Below, piece after piece: positions 1,609 through 11,435 of a DNA stretch of 32,926 nt (positions within the stretch are counted from its first letter, which is position 1; the number at the start of each line of letters is the position of its first letter). The position numbers and the translations under genes are program-made. The stretch comes from a virus, in IMG/VR virus record IMGVR_UViG_3300009155_000148, positions 1 to 32,926 of that record. One strand, written 5' to 3'. The notes below the pieces were generated by a model. The model did no database searches and had not been told where the DNA came from. It saw only the letters and a list, made by a program, of their open reading frames with translations.

Positions 1609-3066
1609 TTACCTTTTATAAGCAGAAGGAGGAGCAATCCCGCGACCACCGCCAACTTGACGAGCATACTGTTCGTCTGCTCTACGTTTCTTGGCAATGT
1701 CGGATTGTGCGTAAGGGCTTCCTAACAACATAGCGGCATTTTGTTGTTGCTGAATGTTGGCAGGCAAAGTAGAACCCTCACCAGCCCCCATCATTGTAAA
1801 TCCTGGCGGCAATACAGCCTCGAGCATGTTGGCCCCAGCCATACCACGTTGACCAGCAGTTTCCGCTTTGGCAAGATCTGGGATAGCAATTAGAGCGCCC
1901 AAGATGCCACCAACTTTTGCGGCTTTTGTGCCCATAAAAGGCGTTCCTTTGGTTTCAAGAACGTGTTTTGTAATTCCAGGAGTTTGCGGTGGAAGAGTAA
2001 GACCAGCGGCTTTTGCTTCTTCTCGTGTTGGCCTACCAAGTAACCTATTAATTTCGCTTGATTCTTGCATGGCAAGGTCGTTGGTCAAGGGAAATGGACG
2101 GTTTGTATAAGCTTTTGTATATTCAGTTTGACCAATATTGGTTCTTGATGTGTCAATATTTTGAGCGCCTGGGACAAAAGCATATCCCGCAGGCACATCT
2201 TCTATTTTGGCGTAACTGTTTCTCAACATTGGCTCACCAGCTTTTTTGCCTTTTGTTCTGATTTCAGCGGCAGGGCCTTGACCAGCATAGGCAGGTTTAT
2301 TAGTGCCTGTTCGAAGCTCTTCTGGAGGCTGGTCAATTAAATCTGCAACAGTTTGGTTAACTGCTTGAGTTACATTGCCGCCAGTAGCAACTGCTTGGCC
2401 TACGCTAGGCGCGGCAGGAGGCGCAGGTGGTGGTGCAGGCGGTACAGCCCCAACAGGCGGTTTAGGCTGCATCAATTGCGGGGCAGGTGGCTGGATAGTC
2501 AGCTGGTCCATTGGATTAGCGGCGCTTGGGAAGCCAGGCGTTGCACCTACTGGCAAAGGATTGGCCCTTGCAGCAGCATCAGCCGCTTTAACCGCTTTGT
2601 TTATTTCACTGCGCTCAATTAATGCCTGTATTTCAGGCGAGTATTTAGTCTCAGGCGCTAAAGAAGGAATAACAGGAGGTGGCGCAACAGGAGCAAGCTG
2701 CCCAATATTACGCATGTCTTGTTTCAGCGTCATGCCTTCAGGTGGAGCGCCAGCAGTGGTTTCACCATATTTCTTTTGGCTAGAAGTGTAGTGGTGATGT
2801 GCAGCAGCCAATGCACCCAATGCACCCAAACCACCTAAAATCTCAGTGCCATAGTTGCTTAGTCCTTCAGCAGCCTTAGGCGCACCAAGATCATTGCTTA
2901 ATTGTTGTGATTTTTCAACAATGGCGTTGACATCAATGGGCTTTGCTTGAGCAACATTAGAAGTCTTTTCAGATTTCATGCGCCTAGAAACAATCCCTTG
3001 CTCCTTCTTTTTTTCAGAAGGAGTTTCAGATGCAGTTAAAGAACTGTAATCGATATCATCTAGCAT
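1609..3066 (-). CDS. Large virion-type protein with proline-rich centre, unknown function
   Basis: I do not recognise this 485-aa family. The N-terminal 60 residues are charged (EKKKEQGIVSRRMKSEK). A hydrophobic Gly/Ala/Leu helix follows at about 76-92 (EILGGLGALGALAAAHHHY). The centre, about 180-225, is a Pro/Ala-rich linker (PPAPPPAPPAAPS), a second hydrophobic stretch lies at about 385-402 (VGGILGALIAIPDLA), and the C-terminus is basic. It overlaps the upstream 475-aa gene by 11 bases and precedes the lysis genes. Two large, low-complexity proteins in this position of a podovirus late operon are often DNA-ejection (internal virion) proteins, and the hydrophobic helices would fit. That is inference from place and composition. 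Confidence 0.55.
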   Translation of the reverse strand: MLDDIDYSSLTASETPSEKKKEQGIVSRRMKSEKTSNVAQAKPIDVNAIVEKSQQLSNDLGAPKAAEGLSNYGTEILGGLGALGALAAAHHHYTSSQKKYGETTAGAPPEGMTLKQDMRNIGQLAPVAPPPVIPSLAPETKYSPEIQALIERSEINKAVKAADAAARANPLPVGATPGFPSAANPMDQLTIQPPAPQLMQPKPPVGAVPPAPPPAPPAAPSVGQAVATGGNVTQAVNQTVADLIDQPPEELRTGTNKPAYAGQGPAAEIRTKGKKAGEPMLRNSYAKIEDVPAGYAFVPGAQNIDTSRTNIGQTEYTKAYTNRPFPLTNDLAMQESSEINRLLGRPTREEAKAAGLTLPPQTPGITKHVLETKGTPFMGTKAAKVGGILGALIAIPDLAKAETAGQRGMAGANMLEAVLPPGFTMMGAGEGSTLPANIQQQQNAAMLLGSPYAQSDIAKKRRADEQYARQVGGGRGIAPPSAYKR

Positions 3067-4477
3067 TTACAGGCTCCATTTCACCGTTAACGTAACGCTG
3101 CAATTTATTGTTTCTGTTTATGTAAACAACACCTTCTTGTGGCTCAACTTTTTTGCCTGAGGCGCGATCAGTCTCATGGTCATATGTGTTGTTGATTGCC
3201 TTAAAAGTCATGGTTTTTTGGAATTTATCACGCAATTCATTAATTGCACTAGGCTCGATGTTACGAATATTTGAATGCATTTCTTTGGCAAGATAAGAAT
3301 TCCATGCCACGTTTAATGAGTTGTTGCGTTGGAAATTAATGTCGTTAACAACAGTGTCTAAACGGCTGTTCAACAAAGGGTCAACAGGCAGCAACTGCTT
3401 AACACCTGGCGCTTGATTAGCTGGATCTGCATCAATGCTGGCTTGGGCTTGGCTAAGAACATTATTTAATTGCAACAGTTTTTGAAGATCTGTAAATTGT
3501 TGAGGTGTGCTGATTACGCCTTGTGTTACACGGCTTAATTCACTCAACATGTTGCGTTGAATGGTTTCAGCATTGCTTGCTGTATTGCCTTGAACAGCAC
3601 CTGTTGTGCCGCCCGTAGTAACTTGGTTCATACCACCAGTAGAACGCCCAGCATTAACACCAACACCACCAGGAATGATTGCACCAACAACACCGCCTTC
3701 AGGATTGCCAATTCCTGCTTTAACACCAACAGTGTTTTGAATGTTTTGACCAACTAAAGCACCAGCATTTTGCCCAGCAGTAGTTTCTGCATTTGTGCCA
3801 GAAGCTTTTGTGCTTTGAGAAGAAACAAAGCCTAAGAGTTTTTGGCGCTGTTCAGGTTGTAACTTACTAACATATTCAAGAACAGGGGCCATTGTTTTGT
3901 CGGAAACAAGCCGCCTACGCTCTTCTAAAGCATTGCGTAACACAGTGCCTTTTTGTGCTGTTTCAATGGACTTAGCATACTGTTCAGCAATAGGTTTTGC
4001 CAAACCAGTTATGTAGTTTTTTTGTGTTTCGCTTGAGCCTTTAAACACACCTGATTCAAGTGCATTTCGATCAGTGTTGCTAATCAAGCCACCTGCATCA
4101 TCCAGCTTTTTTATTTCAGCAGCAGTAAGTTCCCGACCTTGCTTATCAAAAATAACCCCAGTTGGGCCACGTTGGTTGTATTGACGAGCAAATTCACCCA
4201 AGACAGGATGAGTTGCCAATTCTTCACGAGTAGGACCACCATTAAAATATTTAATAGCTTCATTAACTTTTCCAGTGGCTATTGCGCCAATCAATGGCAA
4301 CCATTGGGTTTGCGTATTAAAGTGCCCTTCTTTGTCTGAGACGGCTTTTTGATTAATTACATTGGCAGTTTGGATTCGATCATCTGGAGTTGCGTTAGGA
4401 GCAATCCCCTTGCCAATAATAATTAAATCAGCAACAGCATTTTCTGGCGGCTTAACCGCATTCATTATTTCTGCCAT
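3056..4477 (-). CDS. Large virion-type protein, candidate internal/ejection protein
   Basis: A 473-aa protein of no family I can name. Residues 1-90 include a segment resembling the LT/lysozyme-adjacent region of ejection proteins only in composition: DRIQTANVINQKAVSDKEGHF, then WLPLIGAIATGKVNEAIKYF. No catalytic Glu motif is evident. The middle is long and helical (about 120-215), followed by a Gly/Val/Asn/Thr-rich stretch (about 225-305) and a helical C-terminus ending VYINRNNKLQRYVNGEMEP. I start it at ATG 4477, where GAGGG lies six bases upstream. The ATG at 4483 directly abuts the same SD and overlaps the upstream stop. It sits between the repeat-rich 437-aa protein (with one small gene between) and the 485-aa protein. 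Confidence 0.55.
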   Translation of the reverse strand: MAEIMNAVKPPENAVADLIIIGKGIAPNATPDDRIQTANVINQKAVSDKEGHFNTQTQWLPLIGAIATGKVNEAIKYFNGGPTREELATHPVLGEFARQYNQRGPTGVIFDKQGRELTAAEIKKLDDAGGLISNTDRNALESGVFKGSSETQKNYITGLAKPIAEQYAKSIETAQKGTVLRNALEERRRLVSDKTMAPVLEYVSKLQPEQRQKLLGFVSSQSTKASGTNAETTAGQNAGALVGQNIQNTVGVKAGIGNPEGGVVGAIIPGGVGVNAGRSTGGMNQVTTGGTTGAVQGNTASNAETIQRNMLSELSRVTQGVISTPQQFTDLQKLLQLNNVLSQAQASIDADPANQAPGVKQLLPVDPLLNSRLDTVVNDINFQRNNSLNVAWNSYLAKEMHSNIRNIEPSAINELRDKFQKTMTFKAINNTYDHETDRASGKKVEPQEGVVYINRNNKLQRYVNGEMEPVNAR

Positions 4478-4479
4478 GA

Positions 4480-4815
4480 TCATCCCTCAAAATCTGTACT
4501 CATGTTGTGGTCAACAGGAGCGGGTTGTGTGCCAAATGTAGGAATTGTGGGAATTGTAGGATTTTTAATTCCCAAAGAATTTGCAGCTCCAGAAAAATTA
4601 CCTTGGCCTAATTGTGACGCAGTATTTGAAATCTTCCCAAATAAGTTTGGAGGTGGCACAGCCGCAGTAGATCCTGTGTTTGGAGGCTCAACACCTAATG
4701 CTGCTTTTTTATAAGCGTCCTCAATGCTCATCATGCCTTTTTTATCATCAAGCCCACTGTAAGTAGACATGTCTGAATATTGTTCAGGATTTGCCCATAA
4801 AGCCGCATTAAACAT
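4480..4815 (-). CDS. Hypothetical 111-aa virion-block protein
   Basis: Unrecognised. It has an N-terminal charged segment (residues 1-40, MFNAALWANPEQYSDMSTYS then DDKKGMMSIEDAYKKAAL), a Pro/Thr-rich middle with a repeated IP step (NPTIPTIPTFG) and an acidic end (STDFEG). AAGGA precedes ATG 4815 by seven bases. The gene lies nine bases after the 437-aa repeat protein and just before the 475-aa protein, so it is co-transcribed with candidate virion genes. Composition suggests a small structural or accessory protein; no catalytic motif was seen. Confidence 0.55.
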   Translation of the reverse strand: MFNAALWANPEQYSDMSTYSGLDDKKGMMSIEDAYKKAALGVEPPNTGSTAAVPPPNLFGKISNTASQLGQGNFSGAANSLGIKNPTIPTIPTFGTQPAPVDHNMSTDFEG

Positions 4816-4824
4816 AAATATTCC

Positions 4825-6138
4825 TTATGAAAGCTTAAAGCCCATACCTTTGCCAGAAGTATTTTGACCTTGCGTTCCAGAAAAGTTTGGAGTCGTAGAT
4901 CCTTGGGGTGTGCCGTAAATCACAGATGCATATTTGTTATACACATCTTGTGGTGTACCAGCATAATTAATTTGAGCAGCAGCAGCTTGATTGGCAGCGC
5001 CTAAGTTTCCTGAGCCTTGACCAGCCAAATTACCATACAAGCCGCCAGCTTGGCCTTTTGCATTTTGACCAGAATTAAGCAAATTGTTATAGCCGCTTTG
5101 AGCTTGTCCAGCTGCTGTTTGTCCAGCACCAAGTAATTGCCCATAAGCATTTTGAGCTTGGTTAGAAGCACCCATGCCAGCATTCATGATATTTCCATAA
5201 ATGCCAGCAGCAGTATTAGCGCCAGCTTGACCAGCGCCTAAAAGACCTTGATATAAATTGCCTGCTTGTCCAGTAGCATTTTGACCAGCGCCAAGCAATG
5301 CTTGACTAGCCGCAGCACGATTAGACTCAATACCTTGTTGCGTTTGAGCGGCAACAGTGCCTAAACGTTGGTTGCTAAGCGATTGCAAGTTGGCTTGAGC
5401 CAAGGCGGCACGGGAAGACCCTAATCCACCAGCAGCGCCATAACTAGCATTTTGACCCGCCATTGCTTCACGAGTTTGCTCCATAGCAGGTTGCAAAGCA
5501 GCGTTAACTTGCTGTTGTGCATATTGAGGCGAAAACAATTGGGCCAGTTGGCTTGCTCCAGCCCCAGTAAGATTTTGTCCCAATCCTTGCTGATAAGCCG
5601 CAGTGCTACCTACGCCGCCAGCGCCTTGGCCTTGCAGTGCAGTAGCCAACCCAGCTTGCTGCCCAGCAATGTTGCTTGAACCACTAAGACCTTGCCCTGT
5701 CAATCCTTGACCAAGACCTTGCTGATAGCCAGCCATATTGCTTAAACCAGTAGCACCGCCACCAGATAACTGTTGACCCAATAAGGCTTGAGATGCCGTT
5801 GTAGATCCTAAACCAGTACCACCTGTGCTGGCTAATTGAGCGCCTGAATTTGCTTGGGCGTTGGCAAGATTATTTTGACCAACTGTGCCAGCAGTAAGTG
5901 CGCCTGCCCCTGTCGCTTGTTGAAGGTTGCCTGTTTGCTGGGCAACATTAGAAGCATTTGCCGCTGCATTTGTAGCAGATGGCATTACTTGATTCAATAC
6001 ATTTTGAGCGCCACCTAAAGTTTGAGCATAGGCAGGAAACGCTGTATTAGTTAAAAAACCTGTTTGTGCGGCAAGAAGATCTTTTTGCTCTTGTGTTACA
6101 ACAGGAGCAGAACTACCAGATGATTTTCCAAATCCCAT
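4825..6138 (-). CDS. Gly/Ala/Gln-rich repeat virion protein
   Basis: A 437-aa protein of very low complexity, almost free of charge in its body. Residues 109-196 are four tandem 22-residue units and residues 281-370 are five tandem 18-residue units. Between them (about 200-275) is a non-repeated block, LFSPQYAQQQVNAALQPAME then GAAGGLGSSRAALAQANLQS. This 'GxxGSSR.AL.QA' pattern recurs in podovirus proteins annotated as tail or virion structural. The N-terminus (MGFGKSSGSSAPVV) and C-terminus (GKGMGFKLS) are alike. The periods of 18 and 22 fit five and six helical turns, so a long fibrous helical assembly is plausible. GGAG precedes the ATG, which overlaps the upstream stop (TAATG). The virion role is inferred from context. 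Confidence 0.65.
   Translation of the reverse strand: MGFGKSSGSSAPVVTQEQKDLLAAQTGFLTNTAFPAYAQTLGGAQNVLNQVMPSATNAAANASNVAQQTGNLQQATGAGALTAGTVGQNNLANAQANSGAQLASTGGTGLGSTTASQALLGQQLSGGGATGLSNMAGYQQGLGQGLTGQGLSGSSNIAGQQAGLATALQGQGAGGVGSTAAYQQGLGQNLTGAGASQLAQLFSPQYAQQQVNAALQPAMEQTREAMAGQNASYGAAGGLGSSRAALAQANLQSLSNQRLGTVAAQTQQGIESNRAAASQALLGAGQNATGQAGNLYQGLLGAGQAGANTAAGIYGNIMNAGMGASNQAQNAYGQLLGAGQTAAGQAQSGYNNLLNSGQNAKGQAGGLYGNLAGQGSGNLGAANQAAAAQINYAGTPQDVYNKYASVIYGTPQGSTTPNFSGTQGQNTSGKGMGFKLS
5029..5298 (-). repeat. Five tandem 54-bp (18-codon) repeats
   Basis: Inside the 437-aa gene, codons 281-370 form five consecutive units of exactly 18 residues. The units begin LLGAGQ, LLGAGQ, IMNAGM, LLGAGQ and LLNSGQ, and each has an aromatic Y at position 16, or one residue earlier or later. 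A degenerate sixth unit (LAGQGSG) follows. The DNA copies have diverged, so this is an old protein-level repeat rather than a recent tandem duplication. Confidence 0.85.
5551..5814 (-). repeat. Four tandem 66-bp (22-codon) repeats
   Basis: Codons 109-196 of the 437-aa gene form four units of exactly 22 residues, starting GLGSTTASQ, GLSNMAGYQ, GSSNIAGQQ and GVGSTAAYQ. Each ends in a Gly/Ala/Ser-rich turn (GGGAT, GQGLS, GQGAG, GAGAS). The period differs from that of the repeats at 5029-5298 in the same protein. Confidence 0.85.
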
Positions 6139-6752: not shown

Positions 6753-8405
6753 TTATTCAAGCAACAAATTATTATTTGATGCGGTTTGCATGATTACCCA
6801 ATTAGTGCCATCAGACACCATTGTCGCCCAATTACCAATTACACCCAAAAGAATGGCTGTTCCTGCCGTTGTGCTATCAATTGGCACAATATTTGATGAA
6901 GCAGAATTAACCAATTGAGTTTGCATATTCTTTACAGTAATTGATCTGCCCGTCCATGCTGAAGCAGCAGGAAAAGTCAAAGTCAAAGTAGACCCTGTTT
7001 TGTTATTGATAATCCAAGTGTCTGTACCCGTTATTGTATAGTCAGCAGTCTTAGTTAGCACTGTAGACAAAGGAATATAGTCAGTGTTAGCCACTGCAGC
7101 TGAAATAGCTGTACCGTTGCCTTTGAGTAAACCAGTAATTGTGGTGGTCAACGTAATGTTTGCGGCTTGACCAGCAGCAACAGTTCCTGCAAATCCGTTG
7201 GCAGATACCACCGATGCGGAAACTAAATTTCCTGAAGCAGTACCCGTTAAGTCTCCAATAAACGTAGTAGCACTAGCAGTAGTTGCAAACGTAACGCTTT
7301 TATCTTGATCTATCGTAACTGCTGTAGCTTGGGTAATTGTGCCATTTGGAGTAACATTAATTAAAGTTTTTGTACCCCTAGCAACAGCCCCCCAGTTTTC
7401 AGTTGCAACGCCTTCAAAAGAAGCTTGAGCGTATCCATCAGAAGAAGTTGTACCGTATCCTGCAAGTTCAAACTTGCCCAAACTGTCTCCACTAAATGGC
7501 GCTTGAGGAGCAGCATAGGTATTGCGAAATTTAGTAACTCGCATTGAGGAACTATTTGCATCGCTAGAATATCCACGAATAGAAATTCTTGACGTTAAAG
7601 TGTTATCTCCAAATGCTCTTAACAAAGTTGTCGGAACAGTTGTTGTATTTATTCCAAGGTGGCTTACGTTTGTTAAACTTTTGGCATTAAGGTCAACTGG
7701 ACTTATGGCTCCAATATACGGAACAAAGTTTTCTGCATTTTGAGCCGCCATTGTTCCCAACTGAGGCTGGGGGATAGACCCAATTGCCTGCTCCAGCGCT
7801 TGAATTTGAGGAGTTTGATCAAGATACGCAATAGATCCAATTGCTTGCTCTAAAGCTTGAATTTGAGAAGATTGATCAAAATAAGGAATAGCTCCAATTG
7901 TTTGTTGTAAAGCTTGGATTTCAGAAGATTGATCAGAAATTACAGGATCAGTTATATTGTCAGCATTAGTTACAAAATCTAAATCAATTGAAGATCCATT
8001 GTCTTTAACAAAAGTTGGGCTTGGACGCAAAGGACCAATATATATTTCAAGTTGCCGACCGCCAGTAGTGTTGTACCAAAAAAACTTAGTTGTTCCAAAA
8101 CCTCCATTTACTGGCAACCATTGATAATCTGATGGGGTTGTTGATTCAGTAAATAAATCATTGTTTCTGATTCCGTAATAAAGTCGATTGGTTGGTACGT
8201 TACTAAAGTTAACTTGTCCGTTATAACTGTCTGCATATTTAACTTGCAAATATTTATATAAATAACTTACAACACCAAAATTAGCAGTGCTTATATAACC
8301 CGTATTAGGGTTGATAGCCATTGTTTGAGAAAAGTTGGCAAGCAGATAATTGACTGCTTCACCCAATTCTGCATTGGTTGGATTTGTAGTTACTGAAAAT
8401 GTCAT
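6753..8405 (-). CDS. Tail fibre / collar-type fibre protein
   Basis: A 550-aa fibre protein. Residues 1-150 form a globular N-terminal domain, presumably for virion attachment. Residues 158-214 are three tandem 19-residue units (DQSSEIQALQQTIG, DQSSQIQALEQAIG, DQTPQIQALEQAIG), a likely trimeric coiled-coil shaft. The region from about 235 to 395 is Ser/Thr/Asn-rich and beta-like. From about 430 a known fibre C-terminal pattern appears (LLKGNGTAISAAVANTDY, then LTFPAASAWTGRSITVKN and ending GNWATMVSDGTNWVIMQ), usual in phage beta-rich tips. GAGG precedes ATG 8405 and the stop of the nozzle-like gene overlaps the ATG (TAATG). It probably contributes to host recognition. Confidence 0.75.
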   Translation of the reverse strand: MTFSVTTNPTNAELGEAVNYLLANFSQTMAINPNTGYISTANFGVVSYLYKYLQVKYADSYNGQVNFSNVPTNRLYYGIRNNDLFTESTTPSDYQWLPVNGGFGTTKFFWYNTTGGRQLEIYIGPLRPSPTFVKDNGSSIDLDFVTNADNITDPVISDQSSEIQALQQTIGAIPYFDQSSQIQALEQAIGSIAYLDQTPQIQALEQAIGSIPQPQLGTMAAQNAENFVPYIGAISPVDLNAKSLTNVSHLGINTTTVPTTLLRAFGDNTLTSRISIRGYSSDANSSSMRVTKFRNTYAAPQAPFSGDSLGKFELAGYGTTSSDGYAQASFEGVATENWGAVARGTKTLINVTPNGTITQATAVTIDQDKSVTFATTASATTFIGDLTGTASGNLVSASVVSANGFAGTVAAGQAANITLTTTITGLLKGNGTAISAAVANTDYIPLSTVLTKTADYTITGTDTWIINNKTGSTLTLTFPAASAWTGRSITVKNMQTQLVNSASSNIVPIDSTTAGTAILLGVIGNWATMVSDGTNWVIMQTASNNNLLLE

Positions 8406-10030
8406 TAGAAAGCATCCTCAACAATAGTTGCTTGCCAATTCATTGCCGTAGTATTCCATGTATTAGTTGCATCATTAGATTGAATTTTTAACGATACTGT
8501 ACGCACGGCATTTTGTTGAGTTGTTACCCAAGGATTATTAGTAACAATGCTCATTCTGCCTGTCTGACCATAGGTTGCGTCCTGTGCTGTTGAATTAGCG
8601 CCACCAACAGTGATCTGTACTTCACCAGTTCCAGCAATTTCAGGCAACGCCCTATGTATATACACTTTGCTTGAATAAGGAATGGGGCCATTTGCTGTTT
8701 GCAAAACAACATTATTTCGTTCAAATAAACAAGGAATAGGTTGGTTATTGATAAAAGAATTACCAATGTCTGTTTGAATTAATTTAAGATTGGCTGATCC
8801 TGTTGGGGCATATGTTACGCAACGTGAAGCATATTTAAAATCACTTCCAACAAACACAGGGCCTTCAGTACCCATACAAGCGTTCTGGATGTCTTTAGGA
8901 GCGTTCCAAACTTGTAAGTCATAGCGGTATGCCAACATCTTGTTGCACCACCCTGTAGAGGTCAAATCAGGAAAATAAATTTCAATTTGATATTTCTGCG
9001 TATTGTTGACCATAAACACACGGTCAGAATATGTGGCACTTAAATTACTGAAAAAGTAATTCTTGACCTTCTGGTTGCCCAAGGAATTGAAATTGGACCC
9101 ATCAAACACCCAAATGTCACGAGCATCAATGCCATACACATTGGCATCAGTATTTGTCCAGCAATTGTTGTTTAACAATCCTCGACCTTGGTTAAACAAT
9201 CGCACACCAAAAACTGGCGTTGTTGTGGATTGATAAGCAATAGGAGAAAGAATTACTGTATCCCAATATGAACAGATGTAAAAGTTACCACCTAAAAAGA
9301 ACCCATCAACTAATTGCCCACGAACAGGAACTTCTTGTTCGTTAGCTATGTTAGATAATGTAGGGACCCAAGATGCTGGTACACCCGTTGTTGCAAAAGC
9401 TTGTGACCAACGAATGGTCGTTTCATATCTTGTGGTAACTCCACTAAGAGTTTTAGTTAAGTTTCCAGCAACCAAAATATTGCCTACGTTTGGAGAACAA
9501 AAATTTCTCATAAACGCAGCAGTTGTTTTGGTTACTCCAATGTCATAGTTCCAAATATAATTGTCAGGAGCAGTGTCATAAACATTAATCTCGGTACGAT
9601 CAGGCAGGAAGTACATTGGAGAGCCAAGGCCATCATTGATGAAGAAAACTTCACCTACCCATGATGTAGTGATATTAATGTTGTCCGTGTAGCCAGACAA
9701 AGTAACATTATTATTTGCGGCATAACCTGGGGTAATGTTGACAATAGAATTGTTGGTCAACATGTACCAACGACCTAAATTGCTTGAATCCCTAGTAGCT
9801 ACAATATAAACAAATTGTCCATTAGATCGAAATCCACCTTCCATAAAAATAGGAAAGTATGGAATTAATGACAAAATTGCTTGTTCGCCATTAATTTTTT
9901 TAACACCACGAACATCTGCTTCAACATTTTTGCCAGAATTGTACTCATTTGGCCCCAAAGCATTGCTTGGGACATCAGGAGTAAACGACATGTTAGAAAA
10001 TGGCGTTCGCAGTTTGGTGTAGTCAGCCAT
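8405..10030 (-). CDS. Tail nozzle-like protein (T7 gp12 / P22 gp10 type)
   Basis: A 541-aa beta-rich protein with the look of podovirus tail nozzle or 'tail tubular B / DNA stabilisation' proteins. It starts with a head-proximal segment (LRTPFSNMSFTPDVPSNALG), then repeated blade-like strands: GQFVYIVATRD, GEVFFINDGLGSPMYFLPD, RWSQAF...PASWVPT, GNFYICSYWDTVILSPI, ARDIWVFDGSNF. Such 'RWS...W' and 'D.W.FDG' blades are typical of the beta-propeller in this family. Its position between the adaptor/tailspike genes and the fibre genes fits. The SD is weak (GGAA about ten bases upstream). It would close the tail channel and anchor fibres. The family assignment is by pattern and not by alignment. Confidence 0.6.
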   Translation of the reverse strand: MADYTKLRTPFSNMSFTPDVPSNALGPNEYNSGKNVEADVRGVKKINGEQAILSLIPYFPIFMEGGFRSNGQFVYIVATRDSSNLGRWYMLTNNSIVNITPGYAANNNVTLSGYTDNINITTSWVGEVFFINDGLGSPMYFLPDRTEINVYDTAPDNYIWNYDIGVTKTTAAFMRNFCSPNVGNILVAGNLTKTLSGVTTRYETTIRWSQAFATTGVPASWVPTLSNIANEQEVPVRGQLVDGFFLGGNFYICSYWDTVILSPIAYQSTTTPVFGVRLFNQGRGLLNNNCWTNTDANVYGIDARDIWVFDGSNFNSLGNQKVKNYFFSNLSATYSDRVFMVNNTQKYQIEIYFPDLTSTGWCNKMLAYRYDLQVWNAPKDIQNACMGTEGPVFVGSDFKYASRCVTYAPTGSANLKLIQTDIGNSFINNQPIPCLFERNNVVLQTANGPIPYSSKVYIHRALPEIAGTGEVQITVGGANSTAQDATYGQTGRMSIVTNNPWVTTQQNAVRTVSLKIQSNDATNTWNTTAMNWQATIVEDAF

Positions 10031-10032
10031 GA

Positions 10033-10359
10033 TTAATTATTCCAAGGCAATGGCAAACTTACAAAAGTTGGATTAGCTTGTGATTCAACTTGAGAAATAA
10101 CATTTTTTTCTGTTGCATCTTTGTCAACGCCGTTGTTCCAACACCAACTCAATACTTGATCTTGAGTCAAATCTGCATAAGGAGTAAATGAACCATTTAT
10201 TTCTGGTTGAGGAAAAGATAAAGTTCCGAAACTTAAGCCGTTATATGTGCCATCAGTTGTATTGCATCGCCATCCACAATCAACTACTGTTTCTATATTT
10301 CCATTAATTTCCGTATTGGATACATTCATCCATTCAATCAACCAATTAATAGTACTCAT
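10033..10359 (-). CDS. DUF7936-like small phage protein
   Basis: A 108-aa protein matching a recurrent phage family of unknown function. It has NWLIEWMNVSNTEINGNIE, a cysteine-bearing strand VDCGWRCNTTDGTY, then YADLTQDQVLSWCWNNGVDK and a C-terminus ending in PLPWNN. The 'LT..QVL.W.W..GVDK...E' block is characteristic of proteins near fibre genes in many podo- and myoviruses. AAGGA lies six bases upstream of ATG 10359, and the ATG overlaps the S74 fibre stop (ATGA). A fibre-tip or fibre-assembly role is possible from context only. Confidence 0.65.
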   Translation of the reverse strand: MSTINWLIEWMNVSNTEINGNIETVVDCGWRCNTTDGTYNGLSFGTLSFPQPEINGSFTPYADLTQDQVLSWCWNNGVDKDATEKNVISQVESQANPTFVSLPLPWNN

Positions 10360-11435
10360 GATTTTCCTTCTAATGCCAAAAGGCGGTTTTCAAGCGATTC
10401 AATAGTGTCAAGTGCTTTTTGCAACGATATGACAACCACGGCTAAAACAGAACGATCATAATAGCCCCAAGGTTTTCCTTCTTCAGGGGCTGGCGCAGCT
10501 TCAGGACCGATTGCGGCATTGACATTCTGGGCATAAAAGCCTAACTGCCGATCTTTGCCAAAGATTTCTTTTTTTTCATCGTTGTAATACCAATAGCCAG
10601 GCTGCAACTTTTTAAGCATAGCATCCGTATCAACTGGAATACCATCTTTAATTTTCCATGTTTCATCAGACACGGACGATATAACACCAGCTGCTGAAAA
10701 TGTCGCTGCGCCAGCGCCATACGCGCTCATGGTGACGATGCCAGTTGAGGCAAGCGTCATGGAAGTAGCAGAAGCGTTAGTCCTCCATGTATGCGAAGCT
10801 GCGTAATAGTATGTGTCTACATATGCTGCGCCAGAACGATTGTAATTTTGAATATATGTCCCAGTACCCCCACCAGGTGCATTTGTAAAAAATTCCAACC
10901 CTGCTGCACCCGCATTTGAAACTGCAAGTTTTGCTTGTGGCGAGCTTGTCCCAATACCTACGTTGCCACCAAAAGGGTTAATTGTTATATCAGCAGCGGA
11001 AGATCCGCCATTAAACACAGAACCCTGTAAATACGGCAAACCTGACGTAACAAGGTTTCCGTGATTCATTAAATAACCAGAGTTAGCATCGCCACGAACA
11101 GTAAATGCAGCTTGAGTATTTGAGGTTGCTAATGTGCTTGCGTTTTGAGCCGCAGCGCCAAGAACTGCCAACTTTGCATTTGCGCCTTCATTAGCGGGAA
11201 TGGTTGCATTAACGCCAACTTGCCCAGCAGATGTAATCAACAACGTATTGCCAGTTGTTAATACACTTGTAGACGATGCGTAAACCACGCCGTTTGCGGA
11301 AAAAGGTCTGGTTATTCCAGTTAAAGCATTGATGGTAATTTGTTTTGTGACGCTACTTTGCACAATCGGAAGAGTTTCAGTTCCAACAACCGGAGTTGTT
11401 GCGGCAGTAAGTTGTGAAATTTTAGCGTTTGACAT
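10356..11435 (-). CDS. Tail fibre with C-terminal S74 intramolecular chaperone
   Basis: A 359-aa fibre. The N-terminus (KISQLTAATTPVVGTETLPI) is the common short virion-attachment module of phage fibres. A beta-rich repeat region with NVGIGTSSPQAKLAV (about 158-172) follows. Residues about 254-359 form a Peptidase_S74 endosialidase-type chaperone: SVSDETWK at 254-261 (the family's 'S.D.RLK' self-cleavage region), LKKLQPGYWYY, RQLGFYAQNVNAAIG and a C-terminal coiled coil (LQKALDTIESLENRLLALE). Such domains drive trimerisation and then cut themselves off. The usual R-L of the motif is T-W here. No Shine-Dalgarno is visible upstream of ATG 11435, only an AT-rich stretch. Confidence 0.88.
   Translation of the reverse strand: MSNAKISQLTAATTPVVGTETLPIVQSSVTKQITINALTGITRPFSANGVVYASSTSVLTTGNTLLITSAGQVGVNATIPANEGANAKLAVLGAAAQNASTLATSNTQAAFTVRGDANSGYLMNHGNLVTSGLPYLQGSVFNGGSSAADITINPFGGNVGIGTSSPQAKLAVSNAGAAGLEFFTNAPGGGTGTYIQNYNRSGAAYVDTYYYAASHTWRTNASATSMTLASTGIVTMSAYGAGAATFSAAGVISSVSDETWKIKDGIPVDTDAMLKKLQPGYWYYNDEKKEIFGKDRQLGFYAQNVNAAIGPEAAPAPEEGKPWGYYDRSVLAVVVISLQKALDTIESLENRLLALEGKS

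Follow-up and report, generated by a model that had tools for sequence, protein, structure and literature searches.

Two tandem-repeat arrays of equal unit number in a putative ejection protein of a phage with SU10-type capsid and portal proteins

The locus and its features

The window, i.e., the whole 32,926-nucleotide stretch of virus record IMGVR_UViG_3300009155_000148 analysed here, derives from a phage with SU10-type capsid and portal proteins. Its minus strand encodes, at 4825-6138, a 437-aa protein in which an array of 22-residue units (N-array) and an array of 18-residue units (C-array) flank a conserved non-repeated block. The features of this gene and its neighbours are as follows (n and m as in the length rule given below):

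4825..6138, minus: whole gene, ejection-protein-like, with paired repeat arrays (n = 5, m = 0)
5884..6138, minus: N-terminal conserved segment, aa 1-85; Gly/Ser-rich MGFGKSSGSS start, then a predicted helix
5821..5886, minus: N-array unit 1, 22 aa, aa 85-106; diverged
5755..5820, minus: N-array unit 2, aa 107-128
5689..5754, minus: N-array unit 3, aa 129-150
5623..5688, minus: N-array unit 4, aa 151-172
5557..5622, minus: N-array unit 5, aa 173-194
5284..5547, minus: conserved block without repeats, about aa 198-285; two helices predicted, with the tip loop between them
5410..5442, minus: predicted hairpin tip YGAAGGLGSSR, aa 233-243
5233..5286, minus: C-array unit 1, 18 aa, aa 285-302
5179..5232, minus: C-array unit 2, aa 303-320
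5125..5178, minus: C-array unit 3, aa 321-338
5071..5124, minus: C-array unit 4, aa 339-356
5017..5070, minus: C-array unit 5, aa 357-374
4828..5013, minus: C-terminal conserved segment, aa 376-437, with YASVIYGTPQ and GTQG
4480..4815, minus: neighbour gene, 111 aa; in the position that the small gene following tf_54 has
3056..4483, minus: neighbour gene with 475-aa product; position suggests a second ejection protein
1609..3066, minus: neighbour gene with 485-aa product; position suggests a third ejection protein
8405-10030: likely nozzle gene (our label); phrog_3287 virion structural protein

A first-pass annotation of this DNA had proposed repeats with periods of 22 and 18 residues flanking a non-repeated block, and both periods are real: the protein matches itself at lag 22 (and 44) across aa 108-200 and at lag 18 (and 36) across aa 270-385, and none of 500 composition shuffles equalled either signal at any lag from 2 to 44. 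Counted from conserved anchors, the N-array occupies aa 85-194 (5557-5886) and the C-array aa 285-374 (5017-5286), with five units each. The earlier count of five 18-residue units is therefore retained, while that of four 22-residue units is raised to five, the missed unit probably being N-unit 1, which is the most diverged (27-32% identity to the other four); the feature spans 5017-5886 rather than the 5029-5814 first assigned. The repetition is confined to the protein, as had been proposed, since Tandem Repeats Finder (minimum score 40) reported no DNA-level array within 4825-6138 and the mean nucleotide identity among units is 0.47 in the N-array and 0.50 in the C-array.

Elsewhere in the window, the gene at 6753-8405 (minus strand), which adjoins the likely nozzle gene and encodes a putative tail-tip fibre without Pfam match, carries a 57-bp tandem repeat (2.9 copies at 7774-7940, 84% match) that encodes three 19-residue units (..QIQALEQAIGSI..). 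Homologues of its product in the repeat-free relatives range from 282 to 1452 aa (blastp), some of them perhaps cut by contig ends.

Equal unit numbers across relatives

Comparison of repeat numbers across relatives, which the first-pass annotation had recommended, brought out a property that it had overlooked: both arrays carry the same number of units, n, in all 154 distinct complete proteins (the window protein and its relatives), with n ranging from 0 to 11 and 111 proteins being repeat-free (n = 0). The lengths follow a simple rule, in which the N gap equals 18 + 22n + 7m and the C gap equals 21 + 18n + 7m (m = 0-2), and no departure from it, even by one residue, occurs among the 154 proteins. 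The coupling is apparent from plain motif distances in 11 complete proteins (the window protein and ten relatives), where QTG/RTG is separated from LFSP (LFGP) by 23 + 22n residues and GLGSSR from AANQAAA (and variants) by 53 + 18n, the n values of the two sides matching (5, 5, 4, 7, 4, 2, 11, 2, 1, 0, 0). Between the arrays, LFSP and GLGSSR lie 37 residues apart in 12 of 12 proteins measured (the 11 complete ones and one fragment). For larger sets, gap lengths were taken between HMM anchors on three conserved segments, and the lockstep was found in 71 of 71 and then in 126 of 126 distinct proteins. Two later scans each added 14 new distinct proteins, all of them in lockstep; of these 28, 9 carry repeats, and 17 share less than 70% identity with any earlier protein over the conserved segments. 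The lockstep is thereby established for this sample.

The states (n,m) are distributed as follows: (0,0) in 111 proteins, (1,0) in 7, (1,1) in 6, (1,2) in 1, (2,0) in 8, (2,1) in 1, (2,2) in 1, (3,0) in 1, (4,0) in 7, (4,1) in 1, (5,0) in 2, (6,0) in 6, (7,0) in 1 and (11,0) in 1. The m = 1 class, with 7 extra residues on both arms, was first met in the 71-protein set, and only the last set contained proteins with a further heptad added to each arm (+14 residues per arm, m = 2), namely L339 and L323. The rule itself was read from the first 11-71 proteins, and the m = 2 offset is post hoc, as it was needed for 2 of the last 14 proteins and was unforeseen. The relatives come from five scans, with up to 80 of 119-182 relatives taken from each and identical proteins merged, so that the sample is not exhaustive. 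Left out were 13 incomplete ORFs in which one of the three anchors was missing (9 of 221 ORFs, 1 in 80 loci and 3 in 72 loci), a number in which copies are not merged.

Chance agreement between the arms falls far short of what is observed: permuting the C-gaps among the 43 proteins outside state (0,0) gave a mean of 5.7 fits and a maximum of 15 in 10,000 trials, against 43 observed. This permutation ignores kinship, which is addressed by counts on trees. A quick tree of the conserved segments (146 rows, near-copies merged) requires at least 30 state changes and contains 21 path-disjoint pairs that differ in state, with every protein balanced on both arms. A more careful tree of 120 rows needs 24 state changes; many of its forks are weak (55 of 117 inner branches are well supported), and the well-supported branches alone force 6 of 10 gains or losses of the repeat-free state. 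Unit sequences are unlike between lineages, and the array expansions therefore look independent. The lockstep has evolved repeatedly.

In one relative, the growth of the arrays is recent enough to be seen in the DNA. L007 (5001-7031; 677 aa) has the most units in the sample (n = 11), and its N-array shows a 132-bp period (3.8 copies, 83% matches) and its C-array a 108-bp period (3.2 copies, 82% matches), i.e., both arms grew recently, by two-unit blocks. The suggestion of the first-pass annotation that the repeats are old and selected thus needs dividing: selection fits the evidence, and age fits the window protein, whereas L007 expanded both arrays recently. Across 13 proteins with n of at least 4, some of them close kin, the highest within-array nucleotide identity correlates between the arms (Spearman 0.75, p 0.003), and the mean identity does so more weakly (0.52, p 0.07).

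The similar divergence of the two-unit-size block expansions on both sides of L007, together with the correlation of highest identities, would also fit a mechanism of mutation or recombination by which the two arms are copied at once, with no structural pairing between them. We regard this as very unlikely, since the units of the two arrays differ in length and sequence and a block of about 90 residues separates the arrays, so that no single tandem duplication adds one unit to each, and since unit numbers have changed in many lineages. As a single tandem duplication cannot add both a 22-residue and an 18-residue unit across a fixed block, the simplest cause of the coupling would be structural, each N-unit having to meet one C-unit in the folded protein.

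Neighbour gene length was also considered as a correlate of n and was rejected, as the 475-aa and 485-aa neighbours have equal lengths in the window (n = 5) and in L007 (n = 11), a comparison limited by the many neighbours that blastp did not find in other loci. In the loci that could be compared, neighbour lengths do not follow n, and therefore nothing here shows the whole phage scaling with n.

Kinship to SU10 gp21/gp22 and LUZ24-type proteins

The window protein has no match in Pfam, NCBIfam or PHROGs. Across an alignment of 65 members that includes it (A3), PHROG searches gave scattered weak matches to nine families, the best being phrog_30507 (5e-6, 2 of 65 members), which has no named function, and Pfam searches gave six scattered families at E 0.036 or worse. 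PDB sequence searches with an alignment of 36 repeat-free relatives (A4) and with one of SU10 gp21/gp22 plus Pseudomonas and Vibrio proteins (A13) returned nothing credible. Of 50,697 annotated phage records, only 1 contains a relative (tblastn), and a search for the host in a bacterial genome collection found no relative among 27 pattern matches.

Profile comparison points to a known group of particle proteins. Aligned with hhalign, A4 and A13 score 38.6 (E 8.8e-5), whereas 60 column shuffles reach at most 20.8 and the reversed control 19.5; A4 against A10 gave 29.3 against 22.9, and A4 against A11 alone gave E 0.07. SU10 gp21, gp22 and the Lyrsu01 protein match phrog_4287, annotated as a DNA ejection protein, and hmmscan detected no match to this family in the window protein or its 64 relatives in A3. 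Single-sequence comparisons of P0021, P0020, P0013 and P0014 with A4 were no better than shuffles. As the PHROG and single-sequence comparisons are null, the case for kinship to SU10 gp21/gp22 is made by the profile match and by gene order. Two Pseudomonas phages, Lyrsu01 and tf, show the same order, namely a 'particle protein' (tf_54, which resembles LUZ24 gp53), a small gene and then two larger particle proteins, and SU10 has gp21, gp22, gp23 and gp24 at that place, without the small gene. The window gene likewise lies downstream of nozzle/tail genes and before two larger putative particle proteins, as in the SU10/LUZ24 gp53 group; these 475-aa and 485-aa neighbours (3056-4483 and 1609-3066) have no Pfam, PHROG or NCBIfam match.

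Further likenesses to SU10 gp21/gp22 and the LUZ24-type proteins (phrog_4287; tf_54) are that the profile similarity extends over the central block and the tip, that both groups have a Gly/Ser-rich N-terminus and that arm lengths rise together in both. In the distant set (11 rows, six of them close kin), the two arms measure 93/79-80, 119/101, 136/122 and 124/117 residues (Pearson 0.97), as taken between fixed alignment columns, two of which hold other residues in gp22. Since the arm lengths rise together there, balanced arms may be old in the superfamily and the counted 22/18 arrays may be a local elaboration. The eleven aligned SU10/LUZ24-type members differ from the window family in having no counted 22/18 arrays, and those of SU10 and Pseudomonas have a Gly-rich tail at the C-terminus, which the window protein lacks.

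Ejection proteins are packed in the phage head and injected with the DNA. By its likely kinship to gp21/gp22, the window protein would be a virion protein, as the first-pass annotation had supposed, and a short-tailed bacterial virus probably injects it ahead of the DNA. The sections of the SU10 study cited here place gp20-24 in virions and not in the genome-release intermediate (PMC9509320).

Seven of the 154 proteins (L195, L316, L329, L336, L338, L347 and L376) have a Peptidase_S74 domain fused to the C-terminus; they are otherwise ordinary members, with n of 0, 1 and 4. Such a fusion is unexpected for an ejection protein: Peptidase_S74, the chaperone of endosialidase, is a folding domain of trimeric tail fibres and spikes. 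Because of these seven relatives, we keep as a rival an exposed trimeric tail needle or fibre, with the hairpin arms making up a rod of six helices, the length of which the paired repeats would tune. The domain fits an exposed trimeric fibre better than an injected protein, and SU10 encodes nearby a trimeric coiled-coil tail needle, gp18, according to the sections of the same study cited here (PMC9509320). This rival is nevertheless unlikely, as the profile match and gene order point to gp21/gp22, the sequence of gp18 looks different (by eye only), the gene at 6753-8405, beside the likely nozzle gene, is by position a better candidate for a needle or tip fibre, and none of the other proteins in the 154-protein set has a C-terminal extension of more than 10 aa. 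The window protein itself contains no Peptidase_S74 domain in Pfam searches, and it is predicted to be all-helical, unlike needles and fibres with this domain, which it resembles in being an elongated phage protein. A separate putative tail fibre of 359 aa, encoded in the window at 10356-11435 (minus strand), matches Peptidase_S74 close to its C-terminus at a borderline score (21.9 bits against a cut-off of 22; E 2e-4).

Unit composition and predicted structure

Unit statistics were derived from 99 N-units and 101 C-units, all distinct, from the repeat-bearing members among 140 proteins. Hydrophobicity in the C-units peaks at 3.60 residues per turn with a strong 5-turn stripe, and in the N-units at 3.67 residues per turn with a weaker 6-turn stripe; the five-turn and six-turn units of the first-pass annotation are thus clean for the 18-residue unit and less so for the 22-residue unit. 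Its observation that charge is nearly absent extends to the family, D/E/K/R making up 3.4% of N-unit and 0.2% of C-unit residues. In the N-units, Gly occupies positions 22, 15 and 3 in 97%, 88% and 80% of units, respectively.

In AlphaFold2 monomer models, the window protein and L006, a relative with n = 2, are helical throughout except in loops and at the ends, at modest confidence (mean pLDDT 67.6 and 66.9; pTM 0.32-0.36), so that the helical rods proposed earlier are found again, as a prediction. In both models, a loop at the tip motif YGAAGGLGSSR separates the arms, and the C-arm of the n = 2 model is spanned by a single helix of 99 residues. For the window model, pLDDT falls below 50 at residues 127-133 and 138-155 (mid N-array), at 345-369 in pieces (late C-array) and near the C-terminus, and the helices are broken where it does so in the two arrays. 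In fold searches, BFVD yielded three matches at E < 1e-3, all of them uncultured-phage proteins probably of the same family. Against the PDB, the window model found two weak matches, and the n = 2 model matched long helices of a generic kind.

The low model confidence in parts of both arrays and the biased composition are what would be expected of a low-complexity Gly/Ala/Gln/Asn sequence drifting by slippage, disordered and structureless. That reading is scarcely credible given that no protein among 154 departs from the length rule by even one residue, that the hydrophobic stripe at 3.6 residues per turn is conserved and that the window gene has no DNA-level repeats.

A paired hairpin of quantised length

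We favour, with reasonable though not high confidence, an ejection protein in which each unit of one arm pairs with a unit of the other, the two arms making up an antiparallel helical hairpin of quantised length. In this scheme, the gene product would be a member of the SU10 gp21/gp22 and LUZ24 gp53 ejection protein group, and its chain would leave along the N-arm, turn at the fixed tip YGAAGGLGSSR and return along the C-arm, forming an antiparallel alpha-helical hairpin. In this clade, the hairpin would lengthen by rungs, a 22-residue segment of the N-arm being set against an 18-residue segment of the C-arm, or alternatively by a symmetric heptad pair. An insertion on one arm would be tolerated only with its partner on the other, which would account for the equal unit numbers. 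Helicity and the tip loop are predictions of the models, and we infer that the arms pack antiparallel and pair physically and that the protein belongs to the ejection set. The view that the two arrays are rods of different pitch, put forward in the first-pass annotation, is at best part of the explanation, because the unit numbers of the two arrays are tied one to one.

Two straight helices with 22 and 18 residues per rung would drift apart by about 6 Å per rung, which the models leave unexplained; at a guess, every N-unit may contain a Gly-rich joint that takes up its four additional residues. An outer helix wrapping by 120 degrees per rung was considered and dropped on geometric grounds, being inconsistent with 6 turns per 22 residues.

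Pairing might instead take place between subunits, with the N-arms forming one layer of a tube and the C-arms another, the layers being equally long. Equal numbers follow from either arrangement, and a tilted outer layer would explain 22 outer against 18 inner residues. We consider this fairly unlikely, as the model of a single chain by itself shows helical arms with a loop at the tip between them, and the +7/+7 and +14/+14 steps are simplest for two equivalent helices lying side by side.

If the arms of one chain do pair as a hairpin, each rung could add about 27 Å (18 x 1.5 Å) to a conduit crossing the cell envelope, which is speculative. The paired 22/18 rungs would then be a length-adjustable part of an injection conduit, at about 27 Å per rung and with 0-11 rungs reaching up to about 300 Å, suiting different host envelopes; we offer this tentatively, as a possibility on the doubtful side.

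Comparison with known systems

The nearest known behaviour to a length-quantised phage hairpin, by analogy, is that of the chemoreceptors (MCPs), whose cytoplasmic coiled-coil hairpin with its conserved tip shifts in length by symmetric seven-residue insertions and deletions, as described in the sections of the source cited here (PMC5907407). The phage family likewise shows +7/+7 steps, and also +14/+14, but differs in that its rung is asymmetric (22 vs 18), is repeated up to 11 times and is nearly uncharged. Structural alignment of the n = 2 model with chemoreceptor hairpins covers 162-199 residues across the tip at a weak Z of 5.5-6.5, which for long helices is no evidence of kinship. Pfam searches with the window protein and the 65 members of A3 revealed no homology to the MCP signalling domain, and no MCP family is among the six scattered matches.

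Phage T7 provides a second comparison. Its helical internal virion proteins gp14, gp15 and gp16 are injected and form a channel, gp14, the smallest of the three, making a hexameric helical channel, and the cited sections of that work make no mention of paired arrays in this ejectosome (PMC8954989). Compared with the present family, T7 gp14 scored 14.0, within the range of 40 shuffles (maximum 18.8), at a distance where kinship could escape a sequence match.

A search of the open full-text literature, to which most subscription journals do not belong, brought up among the papers listed no description of this repeat family or of paired 22/18 repeats. We take the protein to be, probably, an ejection protein with a hairpin of quantised length, whose family adds to the heptad step an asymmetric +22/+18 step that is repeated up to 11 times.

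Implications

The one-to-one coupling of the arrays, re-balanced many times, amounts to a natural experiment on how an unbalanced intermediate state is crossed; no such intermediate is seen among the 154 complete proteins. The lockstep also places a strong restraint on distances in a class of phage proteins that, in the cited sections of the SU10 study, was left unresolved in the virion reconstruction (PMC9509320). Because n can be read from sequence alone, the relation between the length of an ejection protein and the cell envelope becomes testable. If the arms are paired rung by rung, the length of the rod would change in evolution only in balanced steps.
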